Positions 5,178 to 23,425 of a stretch of DNA of 64,000 bases are shown in pieces. A model generated the notes under the pieces. It did not search any database. It saw only the letters and a list, made by a program, of their open reading frames with translations, and was not told the origin of the DNA. Source of the stretch: a virus; the IMG/VR virus record IMGVR_UViG_3300023174_000039, positions 248,001-312,000 of that record. The stretch is one strand, 5' to 3'. The position numbers were made by a program, and so were the translations under genes. Position 1 is the first letter of the stretch. Every line of letters begins with the position of its first letter.

Positions 5178-6289
5178 TTTATTCCGTTGACCAAATTCGA
5201 CATCTACATTTAGAAATAAGCAGTTTATGCAATGCCGCGTGTCCGTTGTGCCCTAGAAATTTCAATGGCTATAAACACAATGCAGGATACACAGAGCACA
5301 ACATGTCATTGGCAGAGGCACAAAAAATATTTCCCGTGGAGTTTGTGCAACAACTAGAGGTCATAGTGATCAATGGGAACTTTGGCGATGCTGTAATGAA
5401 TCCAGACACTGTGCCAATTGTTAGATATTTTAAAGAACACAATCCCAAGATACATATCAATATCAGCACCAATGGTGCCGCAAGAGATGCCAGATTCTGG
5501 AAAGACCTGGCAGCATCTGATGTTGAAGTGAGTTTTTGTATTGACGGCGTTGATGATTTCACGCACGGACTGTATCGACGCAACACAATGTACAGCACAA
5601 TCATGCGTAACTCTGCTACATTTATAGCTGCCGGAGGACGAGCTAACTGGAAGATGATTAAGTTTGATCATAATGGTCCATTTCAGGAACAGGCCCATCA
5701 GCTCAGCATACAAAGAGGATTCACGAATTTTTCACTGATCAACGACGGACGAGACATAGGACCTGTTTACAATGACCAAGGCGATTTACAATACACCATT
5801 GGAGAGGCACGGATCGATTGGCAGCCACCTGCAAGAATTGAACCGTTGTTAGAAATGAATTTTGATGAAAAATTCAAAGGTAATCAGATTATCTGGGTCA
5901 AGAAAGAAGAGATCAAAGAAATCCACTGTGAAGTTGCAGTATCAAAAAGTGTATATGTCAGCAGTACCGGAGATGTGTTCCCTTGTTGTTACATGGGCAT
6001 AAATCCTGCTGAATACAGAAACAATACCAGTCACGGATACAGCATGGAACAAATCAATCAGATTATGGCCAAGAACAATGCACTAGAGCACGATCTTGCC
6101 ACCTGTATTGCATGGTTTGATCACATTGAATCCAGCTGGAACAAAGACTCATTTGAGAATGGCAGATTACTGACCTGCAATCAATCATGCGGAGGCGACA
6201 ATCAGCGTCCGCAGTTTCATGTCAAAGAAGCCACAATATACTATAACGATGTTAACGGGTCCCAAACCCAGGATCAGGCCACCGACTAG
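5174..6289 (+). CDS. Radical SAM protein, CNAACPLC type
   Basis: A 371-residue protein with the radical SAM cluster motif CNAACPLC at residues 19-26, which binds a [4Fe-4S] cluster and SAM. The usual GGEP motif is replaced by GNFGDAVMNPD. The C-terminal part has GDVFPCCYMG and a later LLTCNQSCGG, consistent with a SPASM/twitch-like auxiliary-cluster domain placed C-terminally. It resembles the protein at 59758-60768 in layout and differs from the six N-terminal-twitch radical SAM proteins on the opposite strand. The start overlaps the SGNH stop by 4 bp. The last 38 bp overlap the convergent gene ending at 6252. The substrate is unknown. Confidence 0.82.
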   Translation: MIYSVDQIRHLHLEISSLCNAACPLCPRNFNGYKHNAGYTEHNMSLAEAQKIFPVEFVQQLEVIVINGNFGDAVMNPDTVPIVRYFKEHNPKIHINISTNGAARDARFWKDLAASDVEVSFCIDGVDDFTHGLYRRNTMYSTIMRNSATFIAAGGRANWKMIKFDHNGPFQEQAHQLSIQRGFTNFSLINDGRDIGPVYNDQGDLQYTIGEARIDWQPPARIEPLLEMNFDEKFKGNQIIWVKKEEIKEIHCEVAVSKSVYVSSTGDVFPCCYMGINPAEYRNNTSHGYSMEQINQIMAKNNALEHDLATCIAWFDHIESSWNKDSFENGRLLTCNQSCGGDNQRPQFHVKEATIYYNDVNGSQTQDQATD

Positions 6290-7061
6290 CATTTGGGTTC
6301 GGGGCATAAAAGTTTGTTAAATCAATGGGCCTTGATCCTGGCTCATAGTTTTGATATGTGTCAACTACCAGTGCGCTCATCATTCGATTGTTGTAAGAAC
6401 TAAAATGATTGCATCGACGGTCTTGTATCATGTAGTGCTTTATTATTTCTGCGTCAGTTCCTTTGCCCTCACTGAAACTCACATGAATCAATGGTGTTGT
6501 AAACACCACTCCGGGTAGCGCGGACTTGGAGATTTCTACTGTAAACGGATAGTTGTTAAAATGTATTTGTTTGATGTCTTTAAAAGTCCTGTCTATTTCG
6601 TGGAACCATTGCACTTGTGACCAATCTTGAAAAGAGTAATCAATCAAGTCTGCGGCCCAGGATTGTAGGGATTTTGCCAGCGTTGTTTTGTACTTGTACT
6701 TGGCATCATCTGAGTGCGGTTTCCAATCCAGGTTTAACATTTCATTTCCCACATCTCCATTTTCGCTATTGTACCTGGTGCTGTTGGTGTGACAAAATAC
6801 CATGAGTTCAATGGATTCAATCCATTCAGGATCATACTCCATATGATCAAATAGTTGTTTACGAGAATAATACCAACTGCGACCAGCAAATCCAAAACTG
6901 TACAAGTTCAACTCCAATGCCTCCGCAGTTAAATCCAGCCAACTCTTATTTTTTGGGTCAGAGTCTTTCTGCTGGGCCATCTTGTGCGGTATCACACTGT
7001 CCTCATTCCAACAACTGCAGAAACTGTCACCTACAAATACTATGTTTTTTTTAAATGGCAT
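6252..7061 (-). CDS. SGNH/GDSL-family hydrolase (copy 2)
   Basis: I place the start at the ATG complementary to 7059-7061, giving 269 residues beginning MPFKKNIVFVGDSFC. The frame is open up to an ATG at 7196, but that start would overlap the upstream gene by 146 bp and precede the natural first strand of the SGNH fold. Visible blocks are VGDSFCS (nucleophile Ser13), LYSFGFAGRSWYYSR, MVFCHTNSTR, and CNHFSSYNN near the C-terminal third as a candidate catalytic His block. It is the last gene of the long minus-strand operon. Its 3' end overlaps the convergent radical SAM gene by 38 bp. The probable role is hydrolysis or transfer of an acyl ester in surface modification (inference). Confidence 0.7.
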   Translation of the reverse strand: MPFKKNIVFVGDSFCSCWNEDSVIPHKMAQQKDSDPKNKSWLDLTAEALELNLYSFGFAGRSWYYSRKQLFDHMEYDPEWIESIELMVFCHTNSTRYNSENGDVGNEMLNLDWKPHSDDAKYKYKTTLAKSLQSWAADLIDYSFQDWSQVQWFHEIDRTFKDIKQIHFNNYPFTVEISKSALPGVVFTTPLIHVSFSEGKGTDAEIIKHYMIQDRRCNHFSSYNNRMMSALVVDTYQNYEPGSRPIDLTNFYAPNPNASRWPDPGFGTR

Positions 7062-8463
7062 TGTACCAGCCTGCCAATCTTGGGTAAGTTGCCGCAAAGT
7101 TTTTGCCTCGACGTTGATCGTATTGTTTAAAGAAGCTTTTGAAATCTTTTTGTAATGCCAATACGTTGGCTTCTTCAACATTGCCAGCAAACTCATCTGT
7201 TGTGTGCGCTATGTACTTTTCTTCATGGGGCGCAGTTACTTCCAGCAGATATTTTGAATAGCGTTCAATGTGGTCAATTTCAATATCTGCAAACAACTTT
7301 TTGATATCTGGACCCTTTAAGAAATCTGTAATTTCGTGTGCGTACTGCTCACGCAGTTCTCTAGGTAGTACTACTATGCTCTGAAATGTGGGGAAGCGCA
7401 CAGGATTAACGCTCAGCATGAGTCCACGACTGTGATTGCTATTGGGAGGTGCTGTGCGTTTGCGGTCTGCAAGCCAGTACAGGAACTCAGTAAATCCGTC
7501 GGCAGCGGCTGCACTCAGTGTGCCACATATGCCAGTATTGGCAATCACACCTGAGTTCAGTACCAGGTCTAGATTGCTGTTCCACAGTTCCCAGTCCAGC
7601 CCATCACGCACATACTCCATCTTGTTGCCTGTGCTTTCGGCACTAGTATATACCCATACAGGCACATCAATGCGACTGCATGCGTCTAAGAAACGTTTTA
7701 GTGTGTCTTGATCGTAGGCCAAGTTAGTGGTCATTTCTATACGACAATCAGTCTTGGAAGTGTTGTTGGCCAGCCAATCCAGTAACTTCCAGGTGTGACC
7801 TGACATCATTGGCTCGCCGCCACTGATTCGTATTTGTTTGATGGTTTTGTGCAGGCTAGAATCCCACCATTTAAAGAACGCATCGGCATAGGGGTTGTCC
7901 TCACCAAATGTATATCCTATTGCTTCGTCGCCAGTGGTTAGATAATGATTACGATGATCAGTTGGTAAATTTGTATAAGCACCGTTTTTGCGAATATCTT
8001 TAGCCCAGGTTGTGCTGATGGTTGGGGCACAATAACTGCATCCTAAATTGCAAGTGCGATCAAAACATATTTCCAAATAAGTCAGATCATAATCGTTTTC
8101 AGAACTGGAAGTGAACGCAGTGTTCAGCAACTCTGGACTCATTTGGCCACCCCAGGTGGTCCACACACGATCGCTGAGACCATCTGGTTCAACGTCTTCC
8201 ATTACCCAGCAGAATTGACAATTCTTGGGCTTGAGTCCCTGTTGCATCATGAGTCTCTCTTGTTTTTTAATGGGAGTATTGTGCAGGGCCATTGGGTTGG
8301 TCTTGATTGCTTCCAGGTCTATTAAATGTGGAGGATTATGGTGACAGCTTGTGGTCCATCCTTGGCTGAGCCATAGGCTGCTGTTGTACCATTTAGATCC
8401 ACAAAAACTTGGACTTTTAGAATCCAGGTTGTCAATCTTCCATTGTTTCATATTAATGCTCAT
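7051..8463 (-). CDS. Twitch-domain radical SAM protein (group A, copy 1)
   Basis: A 470-residue protein. The N-terminal region has SFCGSKWYNSSLWL, TTSCHH and NCQFCW, a cysteine pattern I read as an N-terminal twitch-like auxiliary Fe-S domain. The radical SAM motif CNLGCSYC follows near residues 136-143, then RISGGEPMMSG. This layout matches the phage-abundant 'twitch domain-containing radical SAM' family. Close relatives here are the proteins at 16449-17801 and 18875-20260, which share the KWYN/KW, SCHH or SCYH and EYCW/QYCW pattern. It sits between two SGNH genes; the start overlaps the preceding stop by 4 bp. The reaction and substrate are unknown. Confidence 0.82.
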   Translation of the reverse strand: MSINMKQWKIDNLDSKSPSFCGSKWYNSSLWLSQGWTTSCHHNPPHLIDLEAIKTNPMALHNTPIKKQERLMMQQGLKPKNCQFCWVMEDVEPDGLSDRVWTTWGGQMSPELLNTAFTSSSENDYDLTYLEICFDRTCNLGCSYCAPTISTTWAKDIRKNGAYTNLPTDHRNHYLTTGDEAIGYTFGEDNPYADAFFKWWDSSLHKTIKQIRISGGEPMMSGHTWKLLDWLANNTSKTDCRIEMTTNLAYDQDTLKRFLDACSRIDVPVWVYTSAESTGNKMEYVRDGLDWELWNSNLDLVLNSGVIANTGICGTLSAAAADGFTEFLYWLADRKRTAPPNSNHSRGLMLSVNPVRFPTFQSIVVLPRELREQYAHEITDFLKGPDIKKLFADIEIDHIERYSKYLLEVTAPHEEKYIAHTTDEFAGNVEEANVLALQKDFKSFFKQYDQRRGKNFAATYPRLAGWYNAI

Positions 8464-9110
8464 TGTATTCCTGTCAATTTATTTTTTAATACCGGGACAA
8501 TTACTTGATTGTAGTATCGTTGATGTCCGTCGTTGTTGGGATGGTCGCACACTGATGATTCTGCTTTGGTCCACTTGAAATCAGCAAAAGATAAAAACTG
8601 CGAATCACGCAGTCGATCAAGCACATGGTTATTCAGAGAAGGTATGTGTACAGGGTCAGGCATACACCAGAGAAAATCTGCACCCACCAGCTGGGCAGAA
8701 GCATATGCAGCCAACAATGTTGTGATTGAACTAGCATGCCCTATTCTATCACTGTACAAATATTTGTAGTAGTGTTCTACGGCTGTTTCAAGTTGAGGAA
8801 ATGTGCGATCTGACTGCCAGTTTGGGCCAATTGATTCGGCTGCATTTTCAGTGCGTCTGATTTGAATTCGAGCGGCAAACGACACACAACATATAACCAA
8901 TTTGATATCGTCGGTTAGTTCTTGATGTAATCGTTCCACAATAGATGCATTGCTGTAGCCTGGGCGGGAACGATTGTCCACTGTGACAGCAAACTCTTTT
9001 TGTATTAAACTAGGCCATGCATACTCACTTGGTTTAGCAATATAACCCATGGGGGTATCCGAGCATCCTTGACCAAAGGTAAAACTATCTCCTAATACCA
9101 CAATTTTCAT
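8460..9110 (-). CDS. SGNH/GDSL-family hydrolase (copy 3)
   Basis: A 216-residue protein with a clean SGNH pattern: GDSFTFGQG near residues 7-15 (nucleophile Ser), SRPGYSNASI near 48-57 (Gly/Asn blocks), and CDHPNNDGHQ near 192-201 (D-x-x-H-type catalytic block). No signal peptide is visible, so it acts in the host cytoplasm or within a complex. It abuts the carbamoyltransferase gene at 9111 and overlaps the next radical SAM gene by 4 bp. Position suggests acyl removal or transfer on a glycan or peptide modified by neighbouring enzymes (inference). Confidence 0.82.
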   Translation of the reverse strand: MKIVVLGDSFTFGQGCSDTPMGYIAKPSEYAWPSLIQKEFAVTVDNRSRPGYSNASIVERLHQELTDDIKLVICCVSFAARIQIRRTENAAESIGPNWQSDRTFPQLETAVEHYYKYLYSDRIGHASSITTLLAAYASAQLVGADFLWCMPDPVHIPSLNNHVLDRLRDSQFLSFADFKWTKAESSVCDHPNNDGHQRYYNQVIVPVLKNKLTGIQ

Positions 9111-10586
9111 TTAGCTACAAACCTTTACATTGTACAACTGTTCAAATCTATCGGCATCAGCACGGTCATTTACCATGGGTTCTCCACGTATGTTTAGACT
9201 TGTGTTGAGCAACATGGCACAACCAGTTTCTTCATGCCAGGCTTCTAGTAGACGTCTGATCCCCGATCCGTCTGCGGGAACTGTTTGCACACGACTAGTG
9301 CCGTCATAATGAACGATAGCAGGAAATAAGTCACGATGCCTGCAACGAGCGATGACTTGCATATACCTACTGTTAGGGAAACCGCTAGGCATATCAAAAT
9401 AATTATGAACATGCTCCTCCAGAATAACTGGCGCAAATGGCCTGAATTGTTGTCTGCGTTTGATTGCATTTACACGTTCCTTTATGTCTGCCCCACGTGG
9501 GTCTGCCAATAATGATCTATTGCCCAAAGCCCTGGGACCAAATTCGGCACGACCACTGGCCACACCCACAATTTTATCCCGTAAAAGACCAGCCACGAGA
9601 TCGCCGACAGGATAGTGACCAGGGATATTGTGGCCCAAATAGGCATTGGTCCAATGTATCTGTTTCCTGTAAGCCAATGCTGCCGCACCAAGGCTACTGC
9701 CAGCATCGCCAGGACAAGGCATAATCCATATGTTATCAAAGTATTTTCCCAAGTTACGATTGGCACTACAGTTAAGAGCCACACCGCCCATGTACACTAA
9801 ATTGTTAGACCACGCAAAGTCACGTGCTCTACGCATTACATTATTGATCAACTGTTCTGCAATGCATTGAGCACCGGCAGCAATGTCATAATCTGACAGA
9901 TCTTTCAAGTATTTACGATCTATTCCTGTGTGTAGATTTTCACGGAATCTTATTTGATCTGAGTCTTTTACTAGTGTTTTCATACCAGTAGCCTGTGTGG
10001 CATCGCCATAGGCTGCCATGCCCATCAAGATGTATTCTTCGTCTAATGGGCGTAGGCCAACGCTGCCAGTAGCCGCAGAGTAGAACAGTCCAATTGAATG
10101 TGGATAACGTTGTGTCCAAAGTTTTCGATATGTTGCATAACCTTTTTGATCATATTCTGCTGCCCAGATTGTAATGGTATCAAATTCACCCACAGCATCA
10201 ATGACCACCACTGTGGCACGATTGTATGGCGAGGTTTGAAATCCTGCTGCCGCATGGCAAGCATGATGGTTGTGTGCGCTTGTGGTAGGTGAGCTCAGCA
10301 GAGCCCGAGGCACTTGTTGTTGTAGCACTTGATCAAGTGTGACTTTGTTCCACTCAATGCCTTGACCAGCATACCATTGTCGTAGTTGTTTAATCCAAGG
10401 ACGCTCGTAGTAGGCCACATGATCCACGCTATCAGTCAATGCATCCTCAATCAGTCCAGAGCAAATATCAGCGTCATTCTTGAGTTTTGAATAACGCTCA
10501 GAATGCCCGGCAAAAAGAATATCGCCCTGATGAATTACAGTAGCGGCAGCGTCGTGAAAACCTGCTGAAATTCCAAGTATTTTCAT
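9111..10586 (-). CDS. O-carbamoyltransferase, NodU/CmcH family
   Basis: A 491-residue protein of the carbamoyltransferase family (NodU, CmcH, TobZ), which moves a carbamoyl group from carbamoyl phosphate, through carbamoyl-adenylate, onto a sugar or antibiotic hydroxyl. Typical features are the N-terminus ILGISAGFHDAAAT, the metal-binding HNHHACHAAAGF at residues 105-116, GGVALNCSAN, then GRAEFGPRALGNRS near 342-356, RRQQFRPFAPVI and NTSLNIRGEPMV. Length is a little shorter than many homologs. The start overlaps the stop of a 33-residue ORF by ATGA. Within this operon the likely target is a hydroxyl on a surface sugar (inference). Confidence 0.9.
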   Translation of the reverse strand: MKILGISAGFHDAAATVIHQGDILFAGHSERYSKLKNDADICSGLIEDALTDSVDHVAYYERPWIKQLRQWYAGQGIEWNKVTLDQVLQQQVPRALLSSPTTSAHNHHACHAAAGFQTSPYNRATVVVIDAVGEFDTITIWAAEYDQKGYATYRKLWTQRYPHSIGLFYSAATGSVGLRPLDEEYILMGMAAYGDATQATGMKTLVKDSDQIRFRENLHTGIDRKYLKDLSDYDIAAGAQCIAEQLINNVMRRARDFAWSNNLVYMGGVALNCSANRNLGKYFDNIWIMPCPGDAGSSLGAAALAYRKQIHWTNAYLGHNIPGHYPVGDLVAGLLRDKIVGVASGRAEFGPRALGNRSLLADPRGADIKERVNAIKRRQQFRPFAPVILEEHVHNYFDMPSGFPNSRYMQVIARCRHRDLFPAIVHYDGTSRVQTVPADGSGIRRLLEAWHEETGCAMLLNTSLNIRGEPMVNDRADADRFEQLYNVKVCS

Positions 10587-10684
10587 TTATAGATAAATGG
10601 ATCTCGTTTGCGTAGTTCTTTTAGTTTTTTGCGATAGCGAATTTCCATGCGAATTCTGTCAATTAAATTTCGAATCCATTTCAT
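10583..10684 (-). CDS. Small basic conserved phage protein (33 residues)
   Basis: A short ORF starting at the ATG complementary to 10682-10684 and ending in TGA at 10583-10585. It encodes a 33-residue, strongly basic, probably helical peptide that begins MKWIRNLIDRIRME and ends RDPFIYK. It fills the gap between the 356-residue protein and the carbamoyltransferase almost exactly, with an ATGA overlap downstream and a 1-nt gap upstream, which argues for a real gene. Peptides ending in a similar RDPFIY motif recur in marine T4-like phages (from memory, not checked). Function is unknown. Confidence 0.65.
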   Translation of the reverse strand: MKWIRNLIDRIRMEIRYRKKLKELRKRDPFIYK

Positions 10685-10685
10685 A

Positions 10686-11756
10686 TTAAGTTCCTTGTGT
10701 GATACACTGTACCTGACGATCACGAAAGTCAGCATCGCTCCAGTGATAGTTGTATATAGCACTAGAGCAACTGGTTGTTATTTTATACACATCTAAATAG
10801 TTATTTAACATGGACCAGATTGTGGCAGCATCTGTTGTGCCAAAACTCCGGATCAAATTCACTTGTGCCACTCTAGGATGGCCAATGGTGAGTGCTTTGT
10901 TTTCGGGGTCAAATCCATTGGCCACAAGCCATTCTCGGAACTGAGCCAGTTCTTTTATCTGCCACGGATAAGCGCCTGGATCTCTTGCCCACTCTATATC
11001 AAAGTCGCCGGCAGCTTCTGTTTGTGCTCGCAGTGTTGTGGTGGTCAATTCGTTTATGCGACTGTCGCGACCTTCATCATGGAACACTTCCCAATGATGT
11101 TTGCCCACTGCTTTGTTGACGCCCACATACACACCGCCTAGGCTGCGATTGATTGTTTCTATGCCAAACAGTTCATAATCTTCTGGCTGTAATTCGAATC
11201 TTGGTGCATTTAACCAACACATGAGTTGGCTGGGACGCACCCATTCAGGTGCATGTTGTGCCTTGCGCATGCTGAGCACAAGACTTTCATACTCGTGACA
11301 CAACAAGTTTAATTGACGAATGTGCCAACGTGTGGCAGCATCTGCGGCTGTGTAAAACGGACTCATTGCACCTGATACGCCTTGAAGGTCTTCAAAATAA
11401 CGGTGCAATCGATTTGTTTTGCTGTGTATGAGTTTGCCTCCAGGCAACCCATCGCCTACAGCACCTGCAGTAATGGTATTTGTGGTATCAAAATGATCTG
11501 TAATTTGATAGCCCATGTCCGCGGCATTGATGGCGGCAATTGACTGATTGATTTGATCACATATGTACTCTGCTGTTCTAGCACCTTGATGCCATCCAAA
11601 CCAACAGTAGTTCTTTTCTAAATGAAGATTGTTTTGTAATATATCATTCAGTGCCGCCAGCCAACGACGGCTAAGGCTGTGATCTTCTACATCTATGTAC
11701 ACTGGCAATAGGTCACCTGTGTGCATGTTTCTCAATGTTATTTCAATTTGTTCCAA
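10686..11756 (-). CDS. Conserved protein of unknown function (356 residues)
   Basis: I do not recognise a defined domain in this 356-residue protein. It has recurring His/Trp-rich stretches (CWFGWHQG near residue 51, NRLHRYFEDLQ, GKHHWEVFHDEGRD) and ends with a cluster around TTSCSSAIYNYHWSDADF. There is no signal peptide or membrane helix. It lies inside the radical SAM operon, overlapping the stop of the upstream radical SAM gene by 14 bp and followed 1 nt later by the 33-residue ORF. Position makes a role with the adjacent radical SAM enzyme plausible, as partner, substrate-binding protein or downstream enzyme, but this is inference only. Confidence 0.6.
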   Translation of the reverse strand: MEQIEITLRNMHTGDLLPVYIDVEDHSLSRRWLAALNDILQNNLHLEKNYCWFGWHQGARTAEYICDQINQSIAAINAADMGYQITDHFDTTNTITAGAVGDGLPGGKLIHSKTNRLHRYFEDLQGVSGAMSPFYTAADAATRWHIRQLNLLCHEYESLVLSMRKAQHAPEWVRPSQLMCWLNAPRFELQPEDYELFGIETINRSLGGVYVGVNKAVGKHHWEVFHDEGRDSRINELTTTTLRAQTEAAGDFDIEWARDPGAYPWQIKELAQFREWLVANGFDPENKALTIGHPRVAQVNLIRSFGTTDAATIWSMLNNYLDVYKITTSCSSAIYNYHWSDADFRDRQVQCITQGT

Positions 11757-13056
11757 TTTGATCCCACCATTCTTTGACGTCAGTCCGTGCGCTCAATATC
11801 TTTGCCATATCAGTAGGCGCTGTGCGTATGCTTTCTAATTTTAACACACGAGCATGGCCTTTTGCAAGCCCTGCACGATAAGTATCTGGCCATTGTTCCT
11901 CAAACGTTGGTCTAGACTGTAGTTGCAACAACATGTCACGCATGACTTGTGTGCGGCATTGCGGCACTAGATCGTTTATCCAGGAATTCAGCAACGGTCT
12001 GGGCAGAGCCAATGGGCTCATTACAATATCTGGACCAAAGCTGAATATCACCTTGGCCAGCAATTCTACCCCATATTCTTCTGCAAGTTGTTCCACTGCT
12101 AGTATTTCTGTCATGCCCGGCAAGGTCAGCGTAAAGTCCAGGCGCATTTGTCTGCGGTTCTGCTGTATGGCTACGCCTTGTGCAAAGTTGTTTCTGAACT
12201 GTTCGTAGTCAAGTCCTGTGCGGATGTATTCTCCTGTGGCTCCTGTTCCGTCAAGACTGGCGCATATCTGCCAGTCGCGGATACAAGCCAAAATATCCCG
12301 ATATAGATTACAGCCCCTATAGTCAACGCGACTAAGATTGGTATTATACCTTGCATATACTCTACCTCCATCTCCTAATTCCACTATTCTTTTCATGTAG
12401 CGCCAGTGCTGTTCGTACATGAGTGGCTCGCCGCCTACCCAGTATATTTCTTCTACTCTGTGTTCTTCTACTGCTTGTGCAAACTCCGCTTCGATCTGTT
12501 GGTCTTGAAAAGCACTTATTTGAGTTCTTATTTCTGGACGCATCCAATTGTTCTTGGGATTTGACCAGTCTGTCATTTCATTTTGTTTTTGTTCTGTTTC
12601 CCACGCACTGCTCAACATATCGCCACAGGTTCTGCATTTAAAATTGCACAGGTTTGAAAAACGATAATCCCAGCTTACAGGCTTCATTGTTGTGTAGCCA
12701 GTGGCGTCTGTTGTGGCTGCTATGTCTTCGTACTTGTGCTTGAACAAATGCCAGAAGTAGGTTCTGTACACATCTGTGTTCAACAGCTTTGAATTGCATA
12801 CATCACACTCAGGCAAAGTTTCACCGGCCAACATGCGACGACGCACTGATCGCATGTGATCACTGTTCCAATGCTGTTCCAAGGTAATGGGAATGTACCG
12901 GCCTGTGCCTGCCGCAGTGTCTATGTACTGTTCAAAACTCTGTGCTGGTTCTCTAGAGGCACAGCACATTCTTCGTTCAGTTTGGGGGCTTAGGTATGTG
13001 TGCGTCCATGGGGCCATACACAATGATTCGGGTTTATTTTGACTCTGCATATGCAA
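11743..13056 (-). CDS. Twitch-domain radical SAM protein (group B, copy 1)
   Basis: A 437-residue protein. The N-terminal twitch-like domain shows LCMAPWTHTYLSP, a CC pair (RRMCCAS) and CDVCNSKL. The radical SAM motif CNFKCRTC follows near residue 138, with WVGGEPLMYE downstream. The P-W-x-H plus CC pattern defines a group B shared with the proteins at 13968-15191 and 15188-16477. A second in-frame ATG two codons later is an equally good start. It overlaps the glycosyltransferase-like gene upstream by 23 bp and the next gene by 14 bp. The substrate is unknown. Confidence 0.82.
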   Translation of the reverse strand: MHMQSQNKPESLCMAPWTHTYLSPQTERRMCCASREPAQSFEQYIDTAAGTGRYIPITLEQHWNSDHMRSVRRRMLAGETLPECDVCNSKLLNTDVYRTYFWHLFKHKYEDIAATTDATGYTTMKPVSWDYRFSNLCNFKCRTCGDMLSSAWETEQKQNEMTDWSNPKNNWMRPEIRTQISAFQDQQIEAEFAQAVEEHRVEEIYWVGGEPLMYEQHWRYMKRIVELGDGGRVYARYNTNLSRVDYRGCNLYRDILACIRDWQICASLDGTGATGEYIRTGLDYEQFRNNFAQGVAIQQNRRQMRLDFTLTLPGMTEILAVEQLAEEYGVELLAKVIFSFGPDIVMSPLALPRPLLNSWINDLVPQCRTQVMRDMLLQLQSRPTFEEQWPDTYRAGLAKGHARVLKLESIRTAPTDMAKILSARTDVKEWWDQIGTN

Positions 13057-16477: not shown

Positions 16478-17801
16478 ACCATTCTTTTAAGTTGGGGAAT
16501 ACGCTGCCAAAATTCTTGTGTCTGCGATGATCGTATTGCGAATAGAACTGTTTGAAATCATTGTGCAGTGAAGGCATGTCAAATGTGTCCGAATGAGGGG
16601 TCTTTACTACATCTAGGTAATCAATTAGCCGTTGTGTGTGATTTACTTCGTGTTCGTGCAACAAAGAGTTGGTACAATTGTTTGCAAGCCATTTTTCTAG
16701 CGCCACACGGAATTGTTCACGCAGTTCTGTGGGCATTACAAGTGCAGATTGAAAACTGGGAAAGCGCAAGATATTTAATGTAAAATTCACACGTTCACGA
16801 CCGTATGTGCGTTTTAATTCCAGCAATTGATCTAGTAACTCGGGCAATGTGGGCAGGCACAAGGCATTGATTGTACACATCACGTGTACTGCTTTTACTG
16901 TATTACTCTGCAACAGCAGGTTTATGTTTGAAAGCCATTGTGCATAGTCCAGGCCGTCACGTATGTACTCAGCACTTGTACCAGTGGCTTCCATACTGGT
17001 GTAAAGTTCCACATGCGGCAGTGAACGGATGGCATCAATGAACTCCTGCAGTTTTTCGGTATCAAAACTCAGATTTGAATTGATAGCTAGTTTTGTAGTT
17101 GACTTGCCCTGATTTGTTTTGAACCAATCAATCAGCTTCCAGGTGTAGCCCGACATCAAGGGCTCTCCGCCGGTTATTCTTAGTTCTTGCAAGGTTTTGT
17201 GGAGGTCTGTTTCCCACCATTCAAAGAAGGCGTTGACGTAAGGATTATCCTCACCGAATTTATAAAGTTGAGCACTATTATGCTCATGAGTAAAGTGGTT
17301 GCGACCATCTGACTGTAACTTAACATAAGGTCCATTTCGCTTGATGTCATTGACCCATGTGCTTGAAAATGCAGGATTGCAGTAACTACAAGCAAGCTGG
17401 CAAGTGCGATCAAAAGCAATTTCCAAGGTGCGTAGGTTAACGTCTTCGTGTACAGGTGTGTTAAAAGCTTCATTTAATGATTCTATAGGATATATCTTTG
17501 ATTTATACACACGATCGCTCACAGCATCACGACCCATGTCTTCAATCTTCCAACAGTACTCGCAGCCTGCTGGTCGTTCACCTGCTAGCATTTTTGCACG
17601 ATCATCACGTTTTTGTCGTGTGTTATGCAAGGCAGCAGGATTAATAATTACTTCTTTTTCAGTCACGTGATGTGCTGGTGGATGATGACAACTTGTGGTT
17701 TGTCCTGAGCCCAACCAGATGGTTGCATTGTACCATTTAGCGGCACAAAAACTAGCTGACTTGGTATCAAGGTGTTGTTGACGGAATTCTAGATCGTTCA
17801 T
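16449..17801 (-). CDS. Twitch-domain radical SAM protein (group A, copy 2)
   Basis: A 450-residue protein whose layout parallels the protein at 7051-8463: N-terminal SFCAAKWYNATIWL, TTSCHHPPAH and GCEYCWKIED, then CQLACSYCNPAFSSTW near residue 133 and RITGGEPLMSGYTWKL. The C-terminal FKQFYSQYDHRRHKNF segment also recurs in that paralog (FFKQYDQRRGKNF). These shared stretches show direct paralogy rather than only a common domain. The gene overlaps both neighbours (29 and 35 bp). The specific reaction cannot be read from the sequence. Confidence 0.83.
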   Translation of the reverse strand: MNDLEFRQQHLDTKSASFCAAKWYNATIWLGSGQTTSCHHPPAHHVTEKEVIINPAALHNTRQKRDDRAKMLAGERPAGCEYCWKIEDMGRDAVSDRVYKSKIYPIESLNEAFNTPVHEDVNLRTLEIAFDRTCQLACSYCNPAFSSTWVNDIKRNGPYVKLQSDGRNHFTHEHNSAQLYKFGEDNPYVNAFFEWWETDLHKTLQELRITGGEPLMSGYTWKLIDWFKTNQGKSTTKLAINSNLSFDTEKLQEFIDAIRSLPHVELYTSMEATGTSAEYIRDGLDYAQWLSNINLLLQSNTVKAVHVMCTINALCLPTLPELLDQLLELKRTYGRERVNFTLNILRFPSFQSALVMPTELREQFRVALEKWLANNCTNSLLHEHEVNHTQRLIDYLDVVKTPHSDTFDMPSLHNDFKQFYSQYDHRRHKNFGSVFPNLKEWYDTIQIQQQ

Positions 17802-18891
17802 TTAAAAATTGCTCTAATAGTAAGGGAAGGTGAGCACGTTGTTGTTGGTTGTACTCCACAAGATGTTGCTGATTGTATTTACAGATGTCGCGGCTGGCTC
17901 GCCAGAAATGTTCAGGACCACTTTTCAAAATATAACGCACTGTTTCTATTATACGCTTGATCCTGGCATGTGGACAATCAATTTGGTCGTAGGATTCATC
18001 TATAATGCCATCAAATGTTTGAAAGCCAGCATGCTGTAGGTCTCGAAGATAGCCGCAATTGGCAGCAACCACAAACGGATGTGCCATCAGAATTGGCTTG
18101 TAGATCTTTTCTGTTCTAAATGAATACGGATAATCAAATATGGTTTCTGACACTAGGCTAAACCAAGAGTCTGTGTAGCAAAAATGATTAACTATGGCAT
18201 CGCCCCAGGTGTTACCAAACAACTCATGCTTGATAAAACCCGATGTGCTCACCGTGGTCAATTGTGGCACAGCACGTGAAATTTCATACTCTGGAGGCAG
18301 TAATCTTATGTGCTCCTGTTTGTCGGGAGTGAGTCTGGATGTGAATTCCATTTCTACTGTGCTGCCTAGATTGGTCCACAATGCACGATCCAATAGTCCT
18401 TGATCACGCAGACCGTCAATTAAACATTTACGATGGGGGCGTAAGCGGCCGTTTAAAAACAAAAACTCATAGGGTCTTGAATCTGTATACTCCCATAATG
18501 CTTGTATCTGTGATGCCCGATTTTCCCTGTATTCAACAATGTTTGAAAAGTAACAATCTGTACTGAAATGATTCCACCCAGGTTCTAGGCCACCAGATGT
18601 CATTAACAGTATGCGGCCATCACGCACATGGTCTTCTATCATGAGTCGTTTCAATTGTAGCAGGATAGTTTCGCTTCCTTCTGCAGGATTACAAAATACA
18701 ATCCGACCCGGATGTTCCGTTGCCCATGTGGTTATTGCTGTCCAGTTGTCTTTTAACAACAGCCGCCCAATGATGTAAATATTTTCTGGATTCAAGTCAG
18801 GCATTTGCCAAAATGAGTCGTCGGCATAGGGCTTGAGTAAATCCCACACTTCAGCCCATTCGTCTACCACAATCTTATGTGTTCCTAGCAT
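17767..18891 (-). CDS. Putative glycosyltransferase-like protein, TEKTFK/DESYD family (paralog 4)
   Basis: A 374-residue protein. The C-terminal signature is RTEKIYKPILMAHPFVVAAN, then LQHAGFQTFDGIIDESYDQ. Here Tyr replaces Phe in the EKTFK element. The middle contains YEFLFLNGRLRPHRKCLIDG, a stretch reminiscent of phage glycosyltransferase-like proteins. It sits between two group A radical SAM genes and overlaps both (35 and 17 bp). Pairing of this family with radical SAM genes therefore occurs twice in the operon. The glycosyltransferase assignment is an inference. Confidence 0.7.
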   Translation of the reverse strand: MLGTHKIVVDEWAEVWDLLKPYADDSFWQMPDLNPENIYIIGRLLLKDNWTAITTWATEHPGRIVFCNPAEGSETILLQLKRLMIEDHVRDGRILLMTSGGLEPGWNHFSTDCYFSNIVEYRENRASQIQALWEYTDSRPYEFLFLNGRLRPHRKCLIDGLRDQGLLDRALWTNLGSTVEMEFTSRLTPDKQEHIRLLPPEYEISRAVPQLTTVSTSGFIKHELFGNTWGDAIVNHFCYTDSWFSLVSETIFDYPYSFRTEKIYKPILMAHPFVVAANCGYLRDLQHAGFQTFDGIIDESYDQIDCPHARIKRIIETVRYILKSGPEHFWRASRDICKYNQQHLVEYNQQQRAHLPLLLEQFLNERSRIPSTTP

Positions 18892-20260
18892 GATACTTGC
18901 ATTCGGCCCACCAGGCTCGCATTTCAGGAAACGTATTTAAAAAGTCTGTGCCTCTACGGCGATCGTGCTCACTAAAGAATCTATAGAAATCGGCTTGTGC
19001 TACAGCATTAGACTGTGATTGACCTTCACGCATCCAGGCAATATCTCGTTCCAGGCGCTGTACTTCGTAGTCTTTGAATCCGTGCAAAGGATTAGCGTCA
19101 GTTGTCATGTTGTCCAGCATGAAGTTTCTGGCACGTTCTAGTTGCACAGCATAGCTTTCTGGCAACAGTTGTAGACTTTGCCAAGCAGGTTCACGGAGCA
19201 CAGGTGTATCAAACCACACACGTTGATATGTAGCAGAATGCTTTTTGCGCAGAGCAAGTATCCATTCTAGCAATACTGGCAAGCCAGTCACTGTGAGATT
19301 GTTCATTGTGATAATAAACGTTAGACTATTGCGGTTTGGTATCTCGTGCAAGAATCGTTCAACGTTTCGGGCCATACGTGCATAGTCCAGGCCATGGCGT
19401 ATGTACTCGGCTTGTGCGGCATGGCCAGAATCCAAACTAACATACTGCATGAAGTGTTCAATACGCGGAGTACATAGTTTTTTGGCATAATCCATGTACT
19501 TTTCAAACAATGTGTCTTCTACTGAAAAGTTAGATGTCACATTCAAGTGCAGTTTGGGATTGTCGTGCTCTAACACATAGTCAAATACTCTGTAGGTATT
19601 ACGATCCATGAGTGGTTCGCCGCCGGTCATGCGGAAGTGTTCCAGCTGTGGGTACAGTGTGGGCCACCATTCCCAAAATGCATCTACGTAAGGGTTAGCA
19701 GTCCGATTAGGAATAGGTCTGCGATCACCACTGAAATGTTCAGGTGCATTATGAGGGCGACTGGTGGGGTAAGCCCCAAGTCTTTCCATTTCATCTTGCC
19801 AGCTTGAACTAAACTGGGGTGAGCAATAACTACATTTAAGATTACAAGCGTGATTAAAATTAACTTCCACATAACTGGGGATAATATCATCTTCGTTTCC
19901 CGTGCTGTTACGAATTTTTTCTAGATCCACAGCGGCCCAAGGTTCACCTGAACGATAGTGCCGATCACTCAGCTTGCCTAGATTTTCCATGTTCCAACAG
20001 TACTGACATTCACTGGGTTTTTCACCAGACAACATCATTTTTCTTTGTGCTTTTTTATGATCAGTATTGTGCAAGCCACCTGGACGTTTTATATCTTCTG
20101 GGCTGATGCGATGCAGTGGAGGATGGTAGCAAGAATTGTTTAGTCCTGTTGGCAAGTGAAAACTAACTTGTTTCCACTTGGCCAGACACAGCGCCGGGCC
20201 AAGTTCTTGTTGCATCTGCTCGGCAGAGCTCATAAACCCGCTTTGATCACCTTTGCTCAT
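18875..20260 (-). CDS. Twitch-domain radical SAM protein (group A, copy 3)
   Basis: I choose the ATG complementary to 20258-20260 (461 residues, starting MSKGDQSGFM). It overlaps the upstream TAA as TAATG and fits the tight coupling of this operon better than the TTG two codons upstream. N-terminal motifs are LCLAKWKQVSFHL, NNSCYHPPLH and ECQYCWNMEN. The radical SAM motif CNLKCSYCSPQFSSSW lies near residue 136, then RMTGGEPLMDR. The C-terminal FYRFFSEHDRRRGTDF matches the group A paralogs. It follows a GT-A-like gene. The substrate is unknown. Confidence 0.83.
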   Translation of the reverse strand: MSKGDQSGFMSSAEQMQQELGPALCLAKWKQVSFHLPTGLNNSCYHPPLHRISPEDIKRPGGLHNTDHKKAQRKMMLSGEKPSECQYCWNMENLGKLSDRHYRSGEPWAAVDLEKIRNSTGNEDDIIPSYVEVNFNHACNLKCSYCSPQFSSSWQDEMERLGAYPTSRPHNAPEHFSGDRRPIPNRTANPYVDAFWEWWPTLYPQLEHFRMTGGEPLMDRNTYRVFDYVLEHDNPKLHLNVTSNFSVEDTLFEKYMDYAKKLCTPRIEHFMQYVSLDSGHAAQAEYIRHGLDYARMARNVERFLHEIPNRNSLTFIITMNNLTVTGLPVLLEWILALRKKHSATYQRVWFDTPVLREPAWQSLQLLPESYAVQLERARNFMLDNMTTDANPLHGFKDYEVQRLERDIAWMREGQSQSNAVAQADFYRFFSEHDRRRGTDFLNTFPEMRAWWAECKYHARNT

Positions 20261-21192
20261 TACCAACCTTCTTGCTTGCGTATGACATCAATCTCACGTG
20301 TCATAGCACCTTGGTTGTGCCAATTGCTACGATAATGGCGTTTGAAAAATGCGCTTTGCTCTTGTTCCAAAATAGCCATGGGCAAATCTAACTGAGTTCC
20401 TAAATCAACACCCAGTTGGTTGCTGAGTAATCGCGGTTGGCTGTCTTTAACTGTGAGCCATAATTCAGATAATGCATCAAACCATTGCACCTGTTTGTGA
20501 TCCCAATTGGTAAGCATGGTCATGTATGTGCCTTGTCGTGCGCCAGCAATGGCCCATTCACCGTGGTCAACATCTGTACCCACATTATGCCAGATGGTCA
20601 AGTTCTCTAGGTTTTTCTTGTGTGCTTGTTCTTTGAAGTCTTCCACTGTGGGCTTGGCGCCTTTGTTCAGACACATCTTTACACCCTCACGGAAGCCGGC
20701 ACGCCAAGCATGAAATGCATCACCGTTGGGATAAGTTGTTGAGTAGCAGTCGTACATGGGCCAGTACAAGGGATCAAAACAAAACTCTACTTCAGTTTCT
20801 GTACGGCCGTCTGTGGCTTCGTGTGTGCGCATGTTCATTACAAATTCTTGTGTCCACGAACTTAGACCTCCGTTGCCATACATGAGTCCATTGACGTGAT
20901 TACGGGCTCTCCAGCGGAACACTGCTTTTTCATACTCTGCAGTGGGAAATGACAGTGTTTGATTAAAGAACTCTGGGTCAGGCATGTTGTCGCCATCAAT
21001 GAGAATAAAGCGTTCAGTATCAGACGCTTCGGCAGCTGCCTTGTGTGCGGCATCACTTCCTTTGACCCCATCCACACGCTTGGCCCAAGGTACCATGTTG
21101 CGTATCTTGACCCAAAATTCTTCTTTCTGTGGTTCGTCGTAGGTTAGATAAATGCAGTCTAGATCTGCTACATCAATTTGATTCAAAGCCAT
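20260..21192 (-). CDS. GT-A-like glycosyltransferase-related protein
   Basis: A 310-residue protein. The segment RFILIDGDNMPDPEFF near residues 62-77 has the strand-plus-D-x-D arrangement of GT-A glycosyltransferases (nucleotide-sugar and metal binding). The N-terminus DLDCIYLTYDEP also fits the first strand of this fold. The later part (KMCLNKGAKPTVEDFKEQ, NLTIWHNVGTDVDHGEW) is characteristic of a family I associate with marine phages but cannot name. The start overlaps the 113-residue gene by 20 bp. Glycosyl transfer is likely but not certain. Confidence 0.62.
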   Translation of the reverse strand: MALNQIDVADLDCIYLTYDEPQKEEFWVKIRNMVPWAKRVDGVKGSDAAHKAAAEASDTERFILIDGDNMPDPEFFNQTLSFPTAEYEKAVFRWRARNHVNGLMYGNGGLSSWTQEFVMNMRTHEATDGRTETEVEFCFDPLYWPMYDCYSTTYPNGDAFHAWRAGFREGVKMCLNKGAKPTVEDFKEQAHKKNLENLTIWHNVGTDVDHGEWAIAGARQGTYMTMLTNWDHKQVQWFDALSELWLTVKDSQPRLLSNQLGVDLGTQLDLPMAILEQEQSAFFKRHYRSNWHNQGAMTREIDVIRKQEGW

Positions 21193-21514
21193 GTGTTTGT
21201 TTACTCCATCGTTGGTGCGTATCAGATTCGGAAACTACAATGCTAACATCACGGGGATGACATGGTGTTCCTGTTTCTGTAGGTTTTAATTTACTAATAA
21301 TATTTTCTGTAAGTTCATACAGTTTTCCTTTGTGTACTCTCACATTTGCAGGGTTTCGACTGTATGTTTCGTGGTCAATTTCTATGTATGTACCTGGCAA
21401 ATCTTCCATGCTATAGAATAACGGAATTCCTTGTTGGTCGTAGTACAATCTATAAAAAATGTCATAGACTTTGGGAGTATCTGTTAGAATTTTCCAGAAC
21501 TCTTCATCTGTCAT
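21173..21514 (-). CDS. Conserved small phage protein of unknown function (113 residues)
   Basis: No recognised domain. The protein is 113 residues, acidic in its first half (MTDEEFWKILTDTPKVYDIF) and Ser/Thr/His-rich at the end. It overlaps the flanking glycosyltransferase-like genes by 11 and 20 bp, so it belongs to the same translated unit and is probably real. A role as a small accessory to these enzymes would be a guess. Confidence 0.55.
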   Translation of the reverse strand: MTDEEFWKILTDTPKVYDIFYRLYYDQQGIPLFYSMEDLPGTYIEIDHETYSRNPANVRVHKGKLYELTENIISKLKPTETGTPCHPRDVSIVVSESDTHQRWSKQTHGFESN

Positions 21515-22292
21515 TGGTCCACTCCTTGACTCTGTAATGCAAGGCTCCCCATTGTACTATGGTGTTGATCTTGGCTATGTAGTTGTGGTATTCAAACACA
21601 AACTCATCAAGCCAGGCCTCTGTACGACTGCCGGCATGTTGTTGCTTCATGTGGGTAATCTGTGGGTAACTGGCAAATGGCATGGTACATCGTTCTGCGC
21701 CAATGATATTGGCAGCCATAGCATACACTAGATCCGTGCTTGGAATGTCTTCGGGGAACTTCAATAACTTCCGATATTCTTCCCAGTTTTCAAATATCTT
21801 GCGTACTGTATCAAAAAATTCCTTGGCTGTTTCACTGAGTCTCCAGTATGTGATAGCATTGTACACATCTGGAAGGTCGTTGGCATCAAATACTTTGCGA
21901 TAGTATCTGCTGGCGGCCTGTTGGTTTTTCCAATCTCTGCAACCAGTTGATACCACTAGATCACGATTGCGTAACAGAGTCCACCAGTGATCAATAGGGC
22001 TAGTAATCATCATGTCTGCTTCCAGCTTGATTGTTTCTCTAAACGGTGTTGCACGAAACACTTGCCAGTCGTTGGCCCAGGGGTTTTCTAAATCCAACGG
22101 ATAAGGAAACTCACGCACATAGTCAAACAGCGGCGGATTTGATGCATCTGTAGCATTGGTCAGCAAACAGATTTGCGCATCAGGATGCCAGTATTTGATG
22201 GTCTTGGCCAGTGTTTCGGCACAACTCACATAGTTTGTGCCGGGTATGTTAATTGCTACTATTAGGTAGCCTTGTTCGGCGATCGGTTTCAA
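21504..22292 (-). CDS. GT-A-like glycosyltransferase-related protein with TTG start
   Basis: A 262-residue protein. The N-terminus GYLIVAINIPGTNYVSCAET and ICLLTN fit the Rossmann-like half of GT-A enzymes. IKLEADMMITSPIDHWW near residues 89-105 occupies the D-x-D position, here as E-A-D. No ATG lies near the N-terminus. The TTG complementary to 22290-22292 is preceded by TAGGAG six bases upstream and by an in-frame TAG before that, so TTG is very likely the start. The gene begins inside the end of the next GT gene (44-bp overlap). It probably transfers a sugar; the donor and acceptor are unknown. Confidence 0.65.
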   Translation of the reverse strand: MKPIAEQGYLIVAINIPGTNYVSCAETLAKTIKYWHPDAQICLLTNATDASNPPLFDYVREFPYPLDLENPWANDWQVFRATPFRETIKLEADMMITSPIDHWWTLLRNRDLVVSTGCRDWKNQQAASRYYRKVFDANDLPDVYNAITYWRLSETAKEFFDTVRKIFENWEEYRKLLKFPEDIPSTDLVYAMAANIIGAERCTMPFASYPQITHMKQQHAGSRTEAWLDEFVFEYHNYIAKINTIVQWGALHYRVKEWTNDR

Positions 22293-23088
22293 CGATGTCT
22301 CCTAGATGTTTTTTGCCCATGGCATGGAAATCCAAGCCTTCGAAGCTCATGTGTTTGAGCTTCTGGTCACTGTCTGTGTATTCTATTGCGTATGAATCAC
22401 TGTTGAGATGTTTCAAGTGTCTGCTTAATCGTGTGTTGGGCATGACGCTGGGCAAGGCCCAGGGTATTTCGTCTACCTTCATTGTATGTCCACTCACAAT
22501 GCCCAGTGCAATACTTAATGCAAAGTCGTTGCGATAGGTAGCACGATCAATGTTGTACAAGTCTCTATAATGCTGCCAGTTGTCTCGCACCATTTGCATG
22601 CAATCAAATATATATTGTGCAGTATTGCTCTTACGGAACATCATCACTGTGGCCCACCACATGGGTATGTTGTATTGTCCAAACATGTTTAGTCCACGCA
22701 TGTCTGTTTGTCCAGCAAGGTCAAATGCTTGTCTATGGCACATGAAGTCTTGCTGTGCGTTTAGTAATTGTTTTAGATTGTTACTGGCCACAACATAGTC
22801 AGCATCCAGCACAATAGTTTGATCATACGGGGTCAAACTGTATGCGTCAACACGCCCGGCATTGTGCCAAGTCACTGTTTTGTCATAATCTTCAAAGTAG
22901 CGAGTACCGCCTGATTCAGCATCAGCGCGGATCACACGGTCAAATGCTGTGCCAGTGTATTCAATATTGGTCACTACACTAACAGGTAGATTCAAATGTC
23001 GACGTACATTGCCAGCACTCCATTCAGCCATGGCCAAGTAGTCTGTTTCTTCGTTGTTGAAGGCAAAGATTAGCACACCTGCGGTCAT
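22249..23088 (-). CDS. GT-A-like glycosyltransferase-related protein
   Basis: A 279-residue protein. GVLIFAFNNEETDYLAMAEW begins the fold, and QTIVLDADYVVASNNL near residues 90-105 supplies a D-x-D motif after a hydrophobic strand, as in GT8-like GT-A enzymes. MWWATVMMFRKS and the later DFALSIALGIVSG are consistent with an acceptor-side domain. It overlaps the upstream 101-residue gene by 4 bp. It is second in the operon, so it would be among the earliest translated of the modification enzymes. Activity is inferred from fold motifs only. Confidence 0.68.
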   Translation of the reverse strand: MTAGVLIFAFNNEETDYLAMAEWSAGNVRRHLNLPVSVVTNIEYTGTAFDRVIRADAESGGTRYFEDYDKTVTWHNAGRVDAYSLTPYDQTIVLDADYVVASNNLKQLLNAQQDFMCHRQAFDLAGQTDMRGLNMFGQYNIPMWWATVMMFRKSNTAQYIFDCMQMVRDNWQHYRDLYNIDRATYRNDFALSIALGIVSGHTMKVDEIPWALPSVMPNTRLSRHLKHLNSDSYAIEYTDSDQKLKHMSFEGLDFHAMGKKHLGDIVETDRRTRLPNSSN

Positions 23089-23390
23089 CGTTGCTTTCTT
23101 AATTCTTCATGCTCTGCAAGCCATCCGTTCATTTGCTCTTGCCATCGTTGCTGTGCTGCCAGTTCAAGTTCTCTAACATCAACCTTTACTGGAGTTTCGT
23201 ACAAGTCTAGCAACACTGCTGTGTCATCAGGGCACACAGCTAGCACGGCCAATAGTTCAGCACCTGCTCTCCACATACCACCTGCATAAGCAAACAACAT
23301 GCGAGCTTCGTATTTTTCTTTTAGTACACGTTTTGCGGCAACGTGATCAAACCTTGCTCGTGCGTGAGCAACTAATTCATTGGTATCCAT
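23085..23390 (-). CDS. Conserved phage protein of unknown function (101 residues), first gene of the operon
   Basis: A 101-residue mostly helical protein (MDTNELVAHARARFDH, KRVLKEKYEARMLFAYAGGM, ending EEMNGW-type helices with LAEHEELRKQR). I recall similar proteins in marine T4-like phages without a function. It starts at the ATG complementary to 23388-23390. A promoter with -10 TATACT lies only six bases upstream, so the mRNA may be nearly leaderless, and no Shine-Dalgarno sequence is visible. It overlaps the next gene by ATGA. Confidence 0.68.
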   Translation of the reverse strand: MDTNELVAHARARFDHVAAKRVLKEKYEARMLFAYAGGMWRAGAELLAVLAVCPDDTAVLLDLYETPVKVDVRELELAAQQRWQEQMNGWLAEHEELRKQR

Positions 23391-23396
23391 AGTGAT

Positions 23397-23425
23397 AGTA
23401 TACGCTGGTTTTAGATAAAAGTAAA
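23397..23425 (-). promoter_or_regulatory. Sigma70-like promoter for the minus-strand accessory operon
   Basis: On the minus strand, TTTACT (complement of 23420-23425) and TATACT (complement of 23397-23402) are separated by 17 bases. The -10 matches the consensus at five of six positions and the -35 at four of six. The expected transcription start falls at about 23389-23391, on the ATG of the first gene. The -35 overlaps the adjoining terminator hairpin. Confidence 0.6.

Follow-up and report, generated by a model that had tools for sequence, protein, structure and literature searches.

A Conserved Giant-Phage Operon with Five N-Twitch Radical SAM Enzymes in Fixed Order and a Possible Role in Glycan Tailoring

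Introduction

The question raised by this locus is what a giant phage would do with a whole series of radical S-adenosylmethionine (SAM) enzymes. The DNA analysed (the window) is a stretch of 64,000 nucleotides spanning bases 248001−312000 of the 331,654-bp virus record IMGVR_UViG_3300023174_000039, and the element in question is a minus-strand run of 17 open reading frames (ORFs), from position 23390 of the window down to 6252, six of which encode radical SAM proteins of the N-twitch type. To our knowledge, no phage has been credited with a series of radical SAM enzymes. An earlier note, made from the sequence of this DNA alone, had described the run as a dedicated biosynthetic system for modifying a phage or host surface molecule, which is a plausible role. 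It was found here that orthologues kept in a fixed order across related loci account for five of the six radical SAM genes and that a 356-aa ORF, U3, belongs to the same conserved core, two features that the note had not seen. The run is read, at about even confidence, as a phage-encoded glycan pathway with its own sigma70-type unit and five N-twitch radical SAM enzymes in series. The carriers are a large family of uncultured aquatic giant phages.

Conservation of the Operon

Relatives were sought in IMG/VR with three families, namely the TEKTFK-family proteins (T), the A-type radical SAM proteins and U3; at least 600 matches were listed for each, and the loci compared were the best 80 per scan. 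Their genes were annotated with profiles made from the window genes, and the radical SAM positions (slots s1–s5) were assigned by best match. All five orthologous slots were present in 66 of the 72 distinct loci that had a readable core and a distinct U3. The order s5-s4-s3-s2-s1 was exact in 56 loci, the others differing mostly by an extra copy or one missing slot. The slots stand after the first gene (Ch), two G2 genes, U1 and G3, and before U3 and the carbamoyltransferase gene (C), so that the recurrent map reads tail-type gene, Ch, G2, G2, U1, G3, radical SAM genes interspersed with T and SGNH-like (S) genes, U3, sometimes S, and C, with T, T and often an amidinotransferase gene (Am) on the facing strand past C. 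In the U3-based scan, which involved no selection on radical SAM genes, a radical SAM gene was found directly upstream of U3 in 80 of the 80 best loci, and C lay within four genes downstream of U3 in 70 of 70 loci.

In a tree of 96 representatives together with the copies of the window and of Vibrio phage K566, the genes at each position formed separate clades. The dN/dS values against near relatives were 0.03–0.14 for the core genes except U1 (0.23–0.28), all of them rough because dS is near saturation. Distance correlations between core genes were positive but uneven (0.09–0.61) and were not used as proof of co-inheritance. At the level of sequence, the comparison establishes a fixed core of Ch, two G2 genes, U1, G3, five N-twitch radical SAM genes, U3 and the carbamoyltransferase gene, joined by interchangeable extras (TEKTFK, SGNH-like, amidinotransferase and further radical SAM genes). 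The accessory T, S and extra radical SAM genes vary between loci, and the two SGNH-like genes of the run and the sixth radical SAM gene, rA1, have no close orthologue in the nearest relatives and are counted as accessory. Judged from the 72 distinct loci, the operon goes beyond chance. A shared, ordered core was thus found rather than an unrelated distribution of the genes across phages, and the dedicated system proposed in the earlier note is strongly supported by the five slots, their fixed order and the linkage to U3 and C, as well as by the conserved cysteines of the radical SAM proteins.

The source record encodes a T4-type large terminase, and three further records of 317–347 kb found via the terminase gene alone all carried U3 and 13–21 N-twitch matches each. 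ORFs were called mechanically over the entire source record, piece by piece. There were 17 PF04055 matches across its whole length, and on clustering of its proteins 14 radical SAM proteins fell into one homologous cluster, five TEKTFK proteins into a second and four amidinotransferase-like proteins (genome positions 91857, 167901, 227459 and 251461) into a third. Two of the four amidinotransferase-like genes lie near homologous small neighbours, at genome positions 91342 and 166556.

The Radical SAM Enzymes

The six operon radical SAM proteins scored 260–405 bits against the NCBIfam model NF033640 (N_Twi_rSAM; curated cut-off 170 bits), with matches covering most of the length of each, and the cut-off was also passed by six of seven further radical SAM copies scanned from the same record. 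The name of the model gives no reaction, and the model does not cover a phage operon with five ordered slots. Seven cysteines are invariant in all six proteins, namely C21, C40, C82 and C85 of the N-terminal auxiliary domain (spaced C-x18-C-x41-C-x2-C in rA1) and C138, C142 and C145 of the CxxxCxxC motif; the same cysteines are invariant in the homologues of the five conserved slots, except in two slot 5 homologues without an N-terminus. The SPASM domain (PF13186) was likewise matched N-terminally in slots 2 and 3 and more weakly in slot 1. The auxiliary cysteine domains read by the earlier note in all six proteins are therefore borne out, and its two paralogous groups were recovered in the tree as an A-type (s5, s4 and rA1) and a B-type (s1, s2 and s3). 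The accessory rA1 groups near slot 4 and reaches only ~40% to its best match in the nearest relatives. The seventh radical SAM gene that the note had placed on the plus strand is present, but its product is of a different type, with a C-terminal SPASM domain and an NF033640 score of 27.7 bits, below the cut-off.

The Partner Proteins

Predicted structures cover one TEKTFK protein (13034..13981) and U3. The AlphaFold model of the former (pLDDT 91.8) matched exostosin (E 2.9e-4, prob 1.00), FUT9 (E 1.8e-3, prob 0.99) and BshA in Foldseek, with TMq values of 0.40–0.48, and all three are GT-B glycosyltransferases (GTs). No GT family was matched by sequence in Pfam or PDB profile searches, and membership of GT10 or GT47 is not claimed for that reason. 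Judged from the model, the TEKTFK proteins are probably GT-B glycosyltransferases, a nature that had escaped the earlier note although its grouping of these proteins stood. The matches behind its GT-A-like calls are weak, GT8-like for G2a and G2b and GT2-like for G3. The PDB profile matches of G2 were almost all to glycogenin (E 0.075), with no GT8 match in Pfam; G2a and G2b are paired in most loci, and Synechococcus phage ACG-2014f has a G2b homologue whose cluster also holds genes for a GDP-mannose dehydratase, GT11, GT6, GT25, a heptose epimerase and a tail fibre. In the G3 family, nine of 16 members weakly matched Glyco_tranf_2_3 (best E 0.0036) and the G3 of the window had no match; D66 and D68 of the DxD motif (LIDGDN) are invariant. 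A 1617-aa protein encoded left of the window (genome 243088–247941, minus strand) has many Trp/Tyr/Pro-rich repeats (DYSWxPxPxxPPYIYxFxxQW...VPGATE) and ends in a G3-like domain; a G3-family gene recurs in many loci at that far (left) end of the region.

Other calls of the earlier note fared unevenly. Both Carbam_trans domains are present in C (PF02543, 2e-34; PF16861, 5e-49), and its nearest PDB relatives are NovN (7.9e-51) and TobZ (4.9e-37), GdmN also being related, which supports the prediction of an O-carbamoyltransferase of the NodU/TobZ type. The amidinotransferase call for Am, a recurrent facing gene though absent from some loci, is upheld by its best PDB match (Table 1). The SGNH calls are weak, since the Lipase_GDSL_2 match of 8460–9110 is below the cut-off and 6252–7196 had no Pfam match and joined the SGNH set only via an iterated profile; the former has no orthologue at this site in the nearest relatives. 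The confident AlphaFold model of U3 had no fold match in the PDB (best E 0.49) and matched only uncharacterised phage proteins in BFVD. One U3-like fold there belongs to Agrobacterium phage Atu_ph07, which was rejected as a relative of the system, as it gave neither a U3 match by sequence nor an N-twitch enzyme above the NF033640 cut-off. U1, of 113 aa, is variable and shows no recognisable core peptide, and a role of Ch as tail assembly chaperone was not adopted, the PHROG match (E 0.067) being not significant.

Operon Layout and Transcription Unit

From the downstream end, the 16 junctions of the run measure −146, −4, 0, +99, −14, −23, −14, −4, −29, −35, −17, −7, −20, −11, −44 and −4 bp. Fourteen of them abut or overlap by 4–44 bp, in agreement with the tight single-strand run reported before, which counted sixteen genes instead of the 17 ORFs found. 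The exceptions are a 99-bp gap between U3 and C (10587–10685) and a 146-bp overlap (7051–7196) that is probably an artefact of an upstream ATG start codon. Exact overlaps are uncertain at several ORFs because the mechanical list starts them at TTG.

Between the tail-type gene and Ch there follow in order a hairpin, a T-rich stretch and a promoter-like element ending ~6 nt before the ATG. Other loci have similar −10 boxes at the same place and, in several, hairpins of different stem sequence. In the 75 bp upstream of Ch, a sigma70 site of at least 9/12 was found in 58% of 62 loci vs 7% of random segments, and one of at least 10/12 in 32% vs 1.3%. A consensus scan of the single sequence gave 39 sites vs 40 in shuffles, which is not above chance; the sigma70-like promoter of the earlier note thus stands through its conservation between loci and not through that scan. 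The position of the −10 box suggests a leaderless message. In 62 of 66 loci the gene next to Ch on its upstream side is a homologue of the Ser/Thr-rich gene of the window, whose product (28% Ser+Thr vs a genome mean of 12.7%) would be a structural (tail) protein, judging by position and composition. A single ORF of 4936 aa (window 26994–41804, minus strand) lies beside structural genes and is homologous to a 1448-aa ORF at genome position 143880.

Table 1. Features of the operon and its surroundings (window positions).
Feature	Position	Strand	Basis or remark
Ser/Thr-rich structural (tail-type) protein, putative	23461..24435	-	adjoins operon upstream
Terminator-like hairpin	23423..23442	-	between tail-type gene and operon
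Sigma70-like promoter TTTACT-17-TATACT	23397..23425	-	-10 box just before Ch start
Ch, 101 aa, first operon gene	23085..23390	-	conserved first gene across loci
G2a, GT8-like candidate glycosyltransferase, LDAD motif	22249..23088	-	weak glycogenin PDB profile matches
G2b, GT8-like candidate glycosyltransferase	21504..22292	-	phrog_1903 E 2.7e-9
U1, core protein	21173..21514	-	between G2b and G3, 69 loci
G3, GT2-like, invariant DxD	20260..21192	-	weak GT2 matches in family
Slot 5 N-twitch radical SAM (rA3)	18875..20266	-	NF033640 312 bits; own clade; cysteines
T, TEKTFK-family, putative GT-B	17767..18891	-	homology to modelled member
Slot 4 N-twitch radical SAM (rA2)	16449..17801	-	NF033640 306 bits; tree; cysteines
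Slot 3 N-twitch radical SAM (rB3)	15188..16477	-	NF033640 405 bits; SPASM PF13186 at residues 34-99
Slot 2 N-twitch radical SAM (rB2)	13968..15191	-	NF033640 332 bits; SPASM at residues 9-78
T, TEKTFK-family, modelled as probable GT-B, variable in relatives	13034..13981	-	AlphaFold and Foldseek
Slot 1 N-twitch radical SAM (rB1), directly upstream of U3	11743..13056	-	NF033640 267 bits; clade support 1.0
U3, 356-aa core protein	10686..11756	-	AlphaFold pLDDT 91.0; no PDB fold match
C, predicted O-carbamoyltransferase	9111..10586	-	Pfam Carbam_trans_N and _C; PDB matches
SGNH/GDSL-like, accessory	8460..9110	-	Lipase_GDSL_2 E 1e-4, below cut-off
Sixth N-twitch radical SAM (rA1), accessory	7051..8463	-	NF033640 260 bits; near slot 4
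SGNH-like, accessory; true start probably inside ORF	6252..7196	-	iterated profile
Radical SAM, C-terminal SPASM, facing strand, not N-twitch	5174..6289	+	PF04055; PF13186 at residues 252-301
SGNH/DUF6071-like, facing strand	4509..5177	+	DUF6071 7e-6, just below cut-off
Am, amidinotransferase, StrB1-type closest solved relative	3461..4486	+	PDB 1bwd (inosamine-phosphate amidinotransferase) E 2.8e-13
T, facing TEKTFK-family protein	2320..3474	+	family homology; recurs in loci
T, facing TEKTFK-family protein	1230..2336	+	family homology; recurs in loci

Occurrence in Deposited Phages and Bacteria

A near-identity search with 25 kb against deposited phages gave no match, and neither did tblastn of T, slot 4, U3, U1 and G3 against 50,697 deposited phage records. 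Five protein types without a deposited match indicate that the system in this form has not been seen by culture-based phage biology. A slot 3 search of the same records found only Vibrio phages K566 and K567, which are distant (identity 22.7%). K566 has four N-twitch radical SAM genes with genes for two GT8 proteins and a GT4-like protein, a likeness in clustering, but differs in that its tested proteins gave no T, U3, C, U1, Ch or G3 match. PagP-like and LpxC (PF03331, 1e-40) genes lie near this cluster (OZ196521, 23993–25259 of the examined stretch) and possibly serve lipid A remodelling. For bacteria and archaea, 84,980 species genomes were scanned once with slot 3 alone, since the six radical SAM proteins together made too diverse an alignment for this purpose; 23 loci resulted, mostly in Bdellovibrionota-type metagenome-assembled genomes (MAGs). 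Several bacterial loci have N-twitch arrays with G3, and one of them also T; the bacterial neighbours of such arrays offer little functional hint. N-twitch enzymes beside glycosyltransferases are thus a recurrent arrangement, given K566 and the bacterial loci. Three bacterial MAGs, one from the Bacteriovoracaceae, one from a marine gammaproteobacterium and one unclassified, have arrays of about 7–9 N-twitch genes within ~20 kb.

Genes Elsewhere in the Record

An IscU-type Fe-S scaffold (genome 62180–62662) and an S-adenosylmethionine synthetase, MetK (genome 30973–32142), could supply the radical SAM enzymes. Pfam scans recognised no nucleoside diphosphate (NDP)-sugar genes in the operon; such genes, with confirmed domains, lie at genome 229010–231231, 202858–204397 and 241067–243119. 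They include a row of nucleotidyltransferase, PfkB kinase and epimerase genes, which looks ADP-heptose-like, as well as other epimerase genes and DegT aminotransferase genes; the subfamilies were judged by eye. A probable 7-deazaguanine DNA modification region (genome 195048–209517) holds GTP cyclohydrolase I and, by eye, a QueE-like radical SAM protein and a DpdA-like protein; two more radical SAM genes of the cluster stand beside it.

Proposed Pathway and Alternative Explanations

The glycosyltransferase, carbamoyltransferase and amidinotransferase content indicates a glycan, which is fairly likely to be the substrate of the radical SAM enzymes, and a fixed series of five such enzymes with mostly sugar-enzyme partners is most simply read as serial radical tailoring of that glycan. 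In the proposed pathway, G2a/G2b, G3 and T would build a short sugar chain on an acceptor, and the five radical SAM enzymes would act on it successively. The CxxxCxxC cluster of each would generate a 5'-deoxyadenosyl radical for the abstraction of a single C-H hydrogen, while the auxiliary cluster at the N-terminus would serve as electron acceptor or substrate ligand by analogy with BtrN; the sugars formed would be of the keto-, epi- or deoxy- type. Caps may be added in the form of carbamoyl, amidino and acyl groups, and U3 would be a scaffold or an enzyme of unknown kind. With less confidence, the putative tail protein rich in Ser/Thr that the neighbouring gene encodes is favoured as the acceptor; a virion tail protein is slightly preferred over the host surface as the site of the glycan. 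The benefit could be a constant chemical coat on the particle or the infected cell against glycosidases, rival phages or recognition. The narrower proposal, that the five enzymes rework consecutive positions of a phage-built glycan and that U3 is a new fold, is held tentatively, at somewhat less than even confidence.

Several points weigh against this pathway. The compared loci lean towards close relatives, having been chosen as best matches, and the literature search found no N-twitch radical SAM enzyme with a known activity or reaction. The assignment of G2 and G3 as glycosyltransferases, drawn from sequence, is weak. The operon has its own promoter, with a terminator before it, so its expression may be apart from that of the virion genes, which weakens the case for a tail-protein acceptor. 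Of the 15 operon-bearing records that reach 250 kb, the source record among them, 14 have IscU, vs 17 of the 50,697 phage records deposited; yet it is also carried by related contigs that lack U3, so that it marks the lineage rather than the operon and its candidacy as an operon-specific partner is weakened. MetK was rejected as a general partner, being found in one of 23 related records; metK occurs in 135 deposited phage records.

The same glycan chemistry might instead be directed at a host surface polysaccharide (the lipopolysaccharide core or O-chain), re-coated to block adsorption of rival phages. This alternative, held to be rather unlikely, agrees with the way phage glycosyltransferase clusters are read in print (PMC7029224; PMC7824862), with a host-type promoter that allows expression of the operon ahead of the virion genes, with the kinase, nucleotidyltransferase, epimerase and aminotransferase genes of NDP-sugar type in the genome, and with the LpxC- and PagP-like genes near the radical SAM/GT genes of K566. 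The published clusters, however, are described as sporadic and polymorphic, which is the argument for an outer polysaccharide (PMC7824862), whereas the operon core is constant and so points away from O-antigen variation of that kind; moreover, Pfam scans recognised no flippase, polymerase or ligase in the operon. It is improbable that the radical SAM enzymes modify a protein or peptide (a virion protein or U1, in the manner of ribosomally synthesised and post-translationally modified peptides) with the sugar enzymes acting separately. Peptides are the substrates of most SPASM/twitch radical SAM enzymes reviewed in PMC8326336, the operon enzymes have weak NCBIfam cross-matches to peptide maturases, and the small protein U1 is always present, but no precursor-peptide or RRE-like family was found in Pfam/NCBIfam scans, the auxiliary domain is N-terminal and not a C-terminal SPASM, U1 varies and lacks a recognisable core peptide, and the partner genes are mostly those of sugar enzymes.

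A small diffusible, aminoglycoside-like metabolite acting on competitors or the host seems quite improbable. The relatives of the O-carbamoyltransferase and of the inosamine-type amidinotransferase stem from antibiotic pathways and a survey proposed secondary metabolites for other jumbo-phage clusters (PMC7824862), yet the operon showed no recognisable gene for an aminocyclitol synthase or for export, and some loci lack the amidinotransferase. Very little credence is given to DNA hypermodification, in which the enzymes would decorate phage bases. Carbamoyltransferases are known in phage DNA modification, and GTP cyclohydrolase I and the QueE-like protein of the probable 7-deazaguanine region would fit this reading, but no PF00303 match, and hence no thymidylate-synthase-type hydroxymethylase, was found in the record, and the operon adjoins a tail-type gene rather than the deazaguanine genes. 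That unlinked genes were gathered in a hypervariable region without a common pathway is hardly credible, as the differences between loci in accessory T, S and extra radical SAM genes, which would fit it, stand against five orthologous slots in fixed order with U3 and C in 66 of 72 loci, which contradict chance gathering.

Relation to Known Systems and Significance

BtrN is a twitch radical SAM dehydrogenase of aminoglycoside pathways with a sugar/cyclitol substrate and one auxiliary Fe-S cluster, and its substrate type and cluster provide the analogy proposed for the operon enzymes; it was not among the PDB matches listed for the operon radical SAM search. In characterised enzymes the twitch domain is C-terminal (PMC8326336), unlike the N-terminal domain here. 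Radical SAM cassettes are mentioned in the host recognition cluster of pelagimyophages, in the tail-fibre region (PMC7029224), and resemble the operon in combining radical SAM and glycosyltransferase genes beside tail fibre genes; compared by description, they are a variable addition reported in one sentence, whereas the operon has five fixed orthologues alongside U3 and C. Polysaccharide and secondary-metabolite clusters of jumbo- and cyanophages were described in a survey covering 224 jumbo phages, with several glycosyltransferases and, in one cluster type, carbamoyltransferases, with no mention of radical SAM enzymes (PMC7824862); those clusters vary, in contrast to the constant operon with its radical SAM series. 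No published description of this ordered operon was found in a search that left most subscription journals outside. Members of one known sequence family thus make up a highly constrained system that appears to be undescribed and that would count as a variant of the glycan clusters of phages, possibly as more.

A fixed order of five enzymes under purifying selection in more than 60 distinct loci, with more loci existing beyond those compared, makes the question of function directly testable. An answer would matter for radical enzymology, for the chemistry of glycans and for the understanding of the coats that giant phages give themselves or their hosts. If the enzymes do rework consecutive positions of a phage-built glycan, both the viral biosynthetic pathway and its radical carbohydrate chemistry would belong to a new class.

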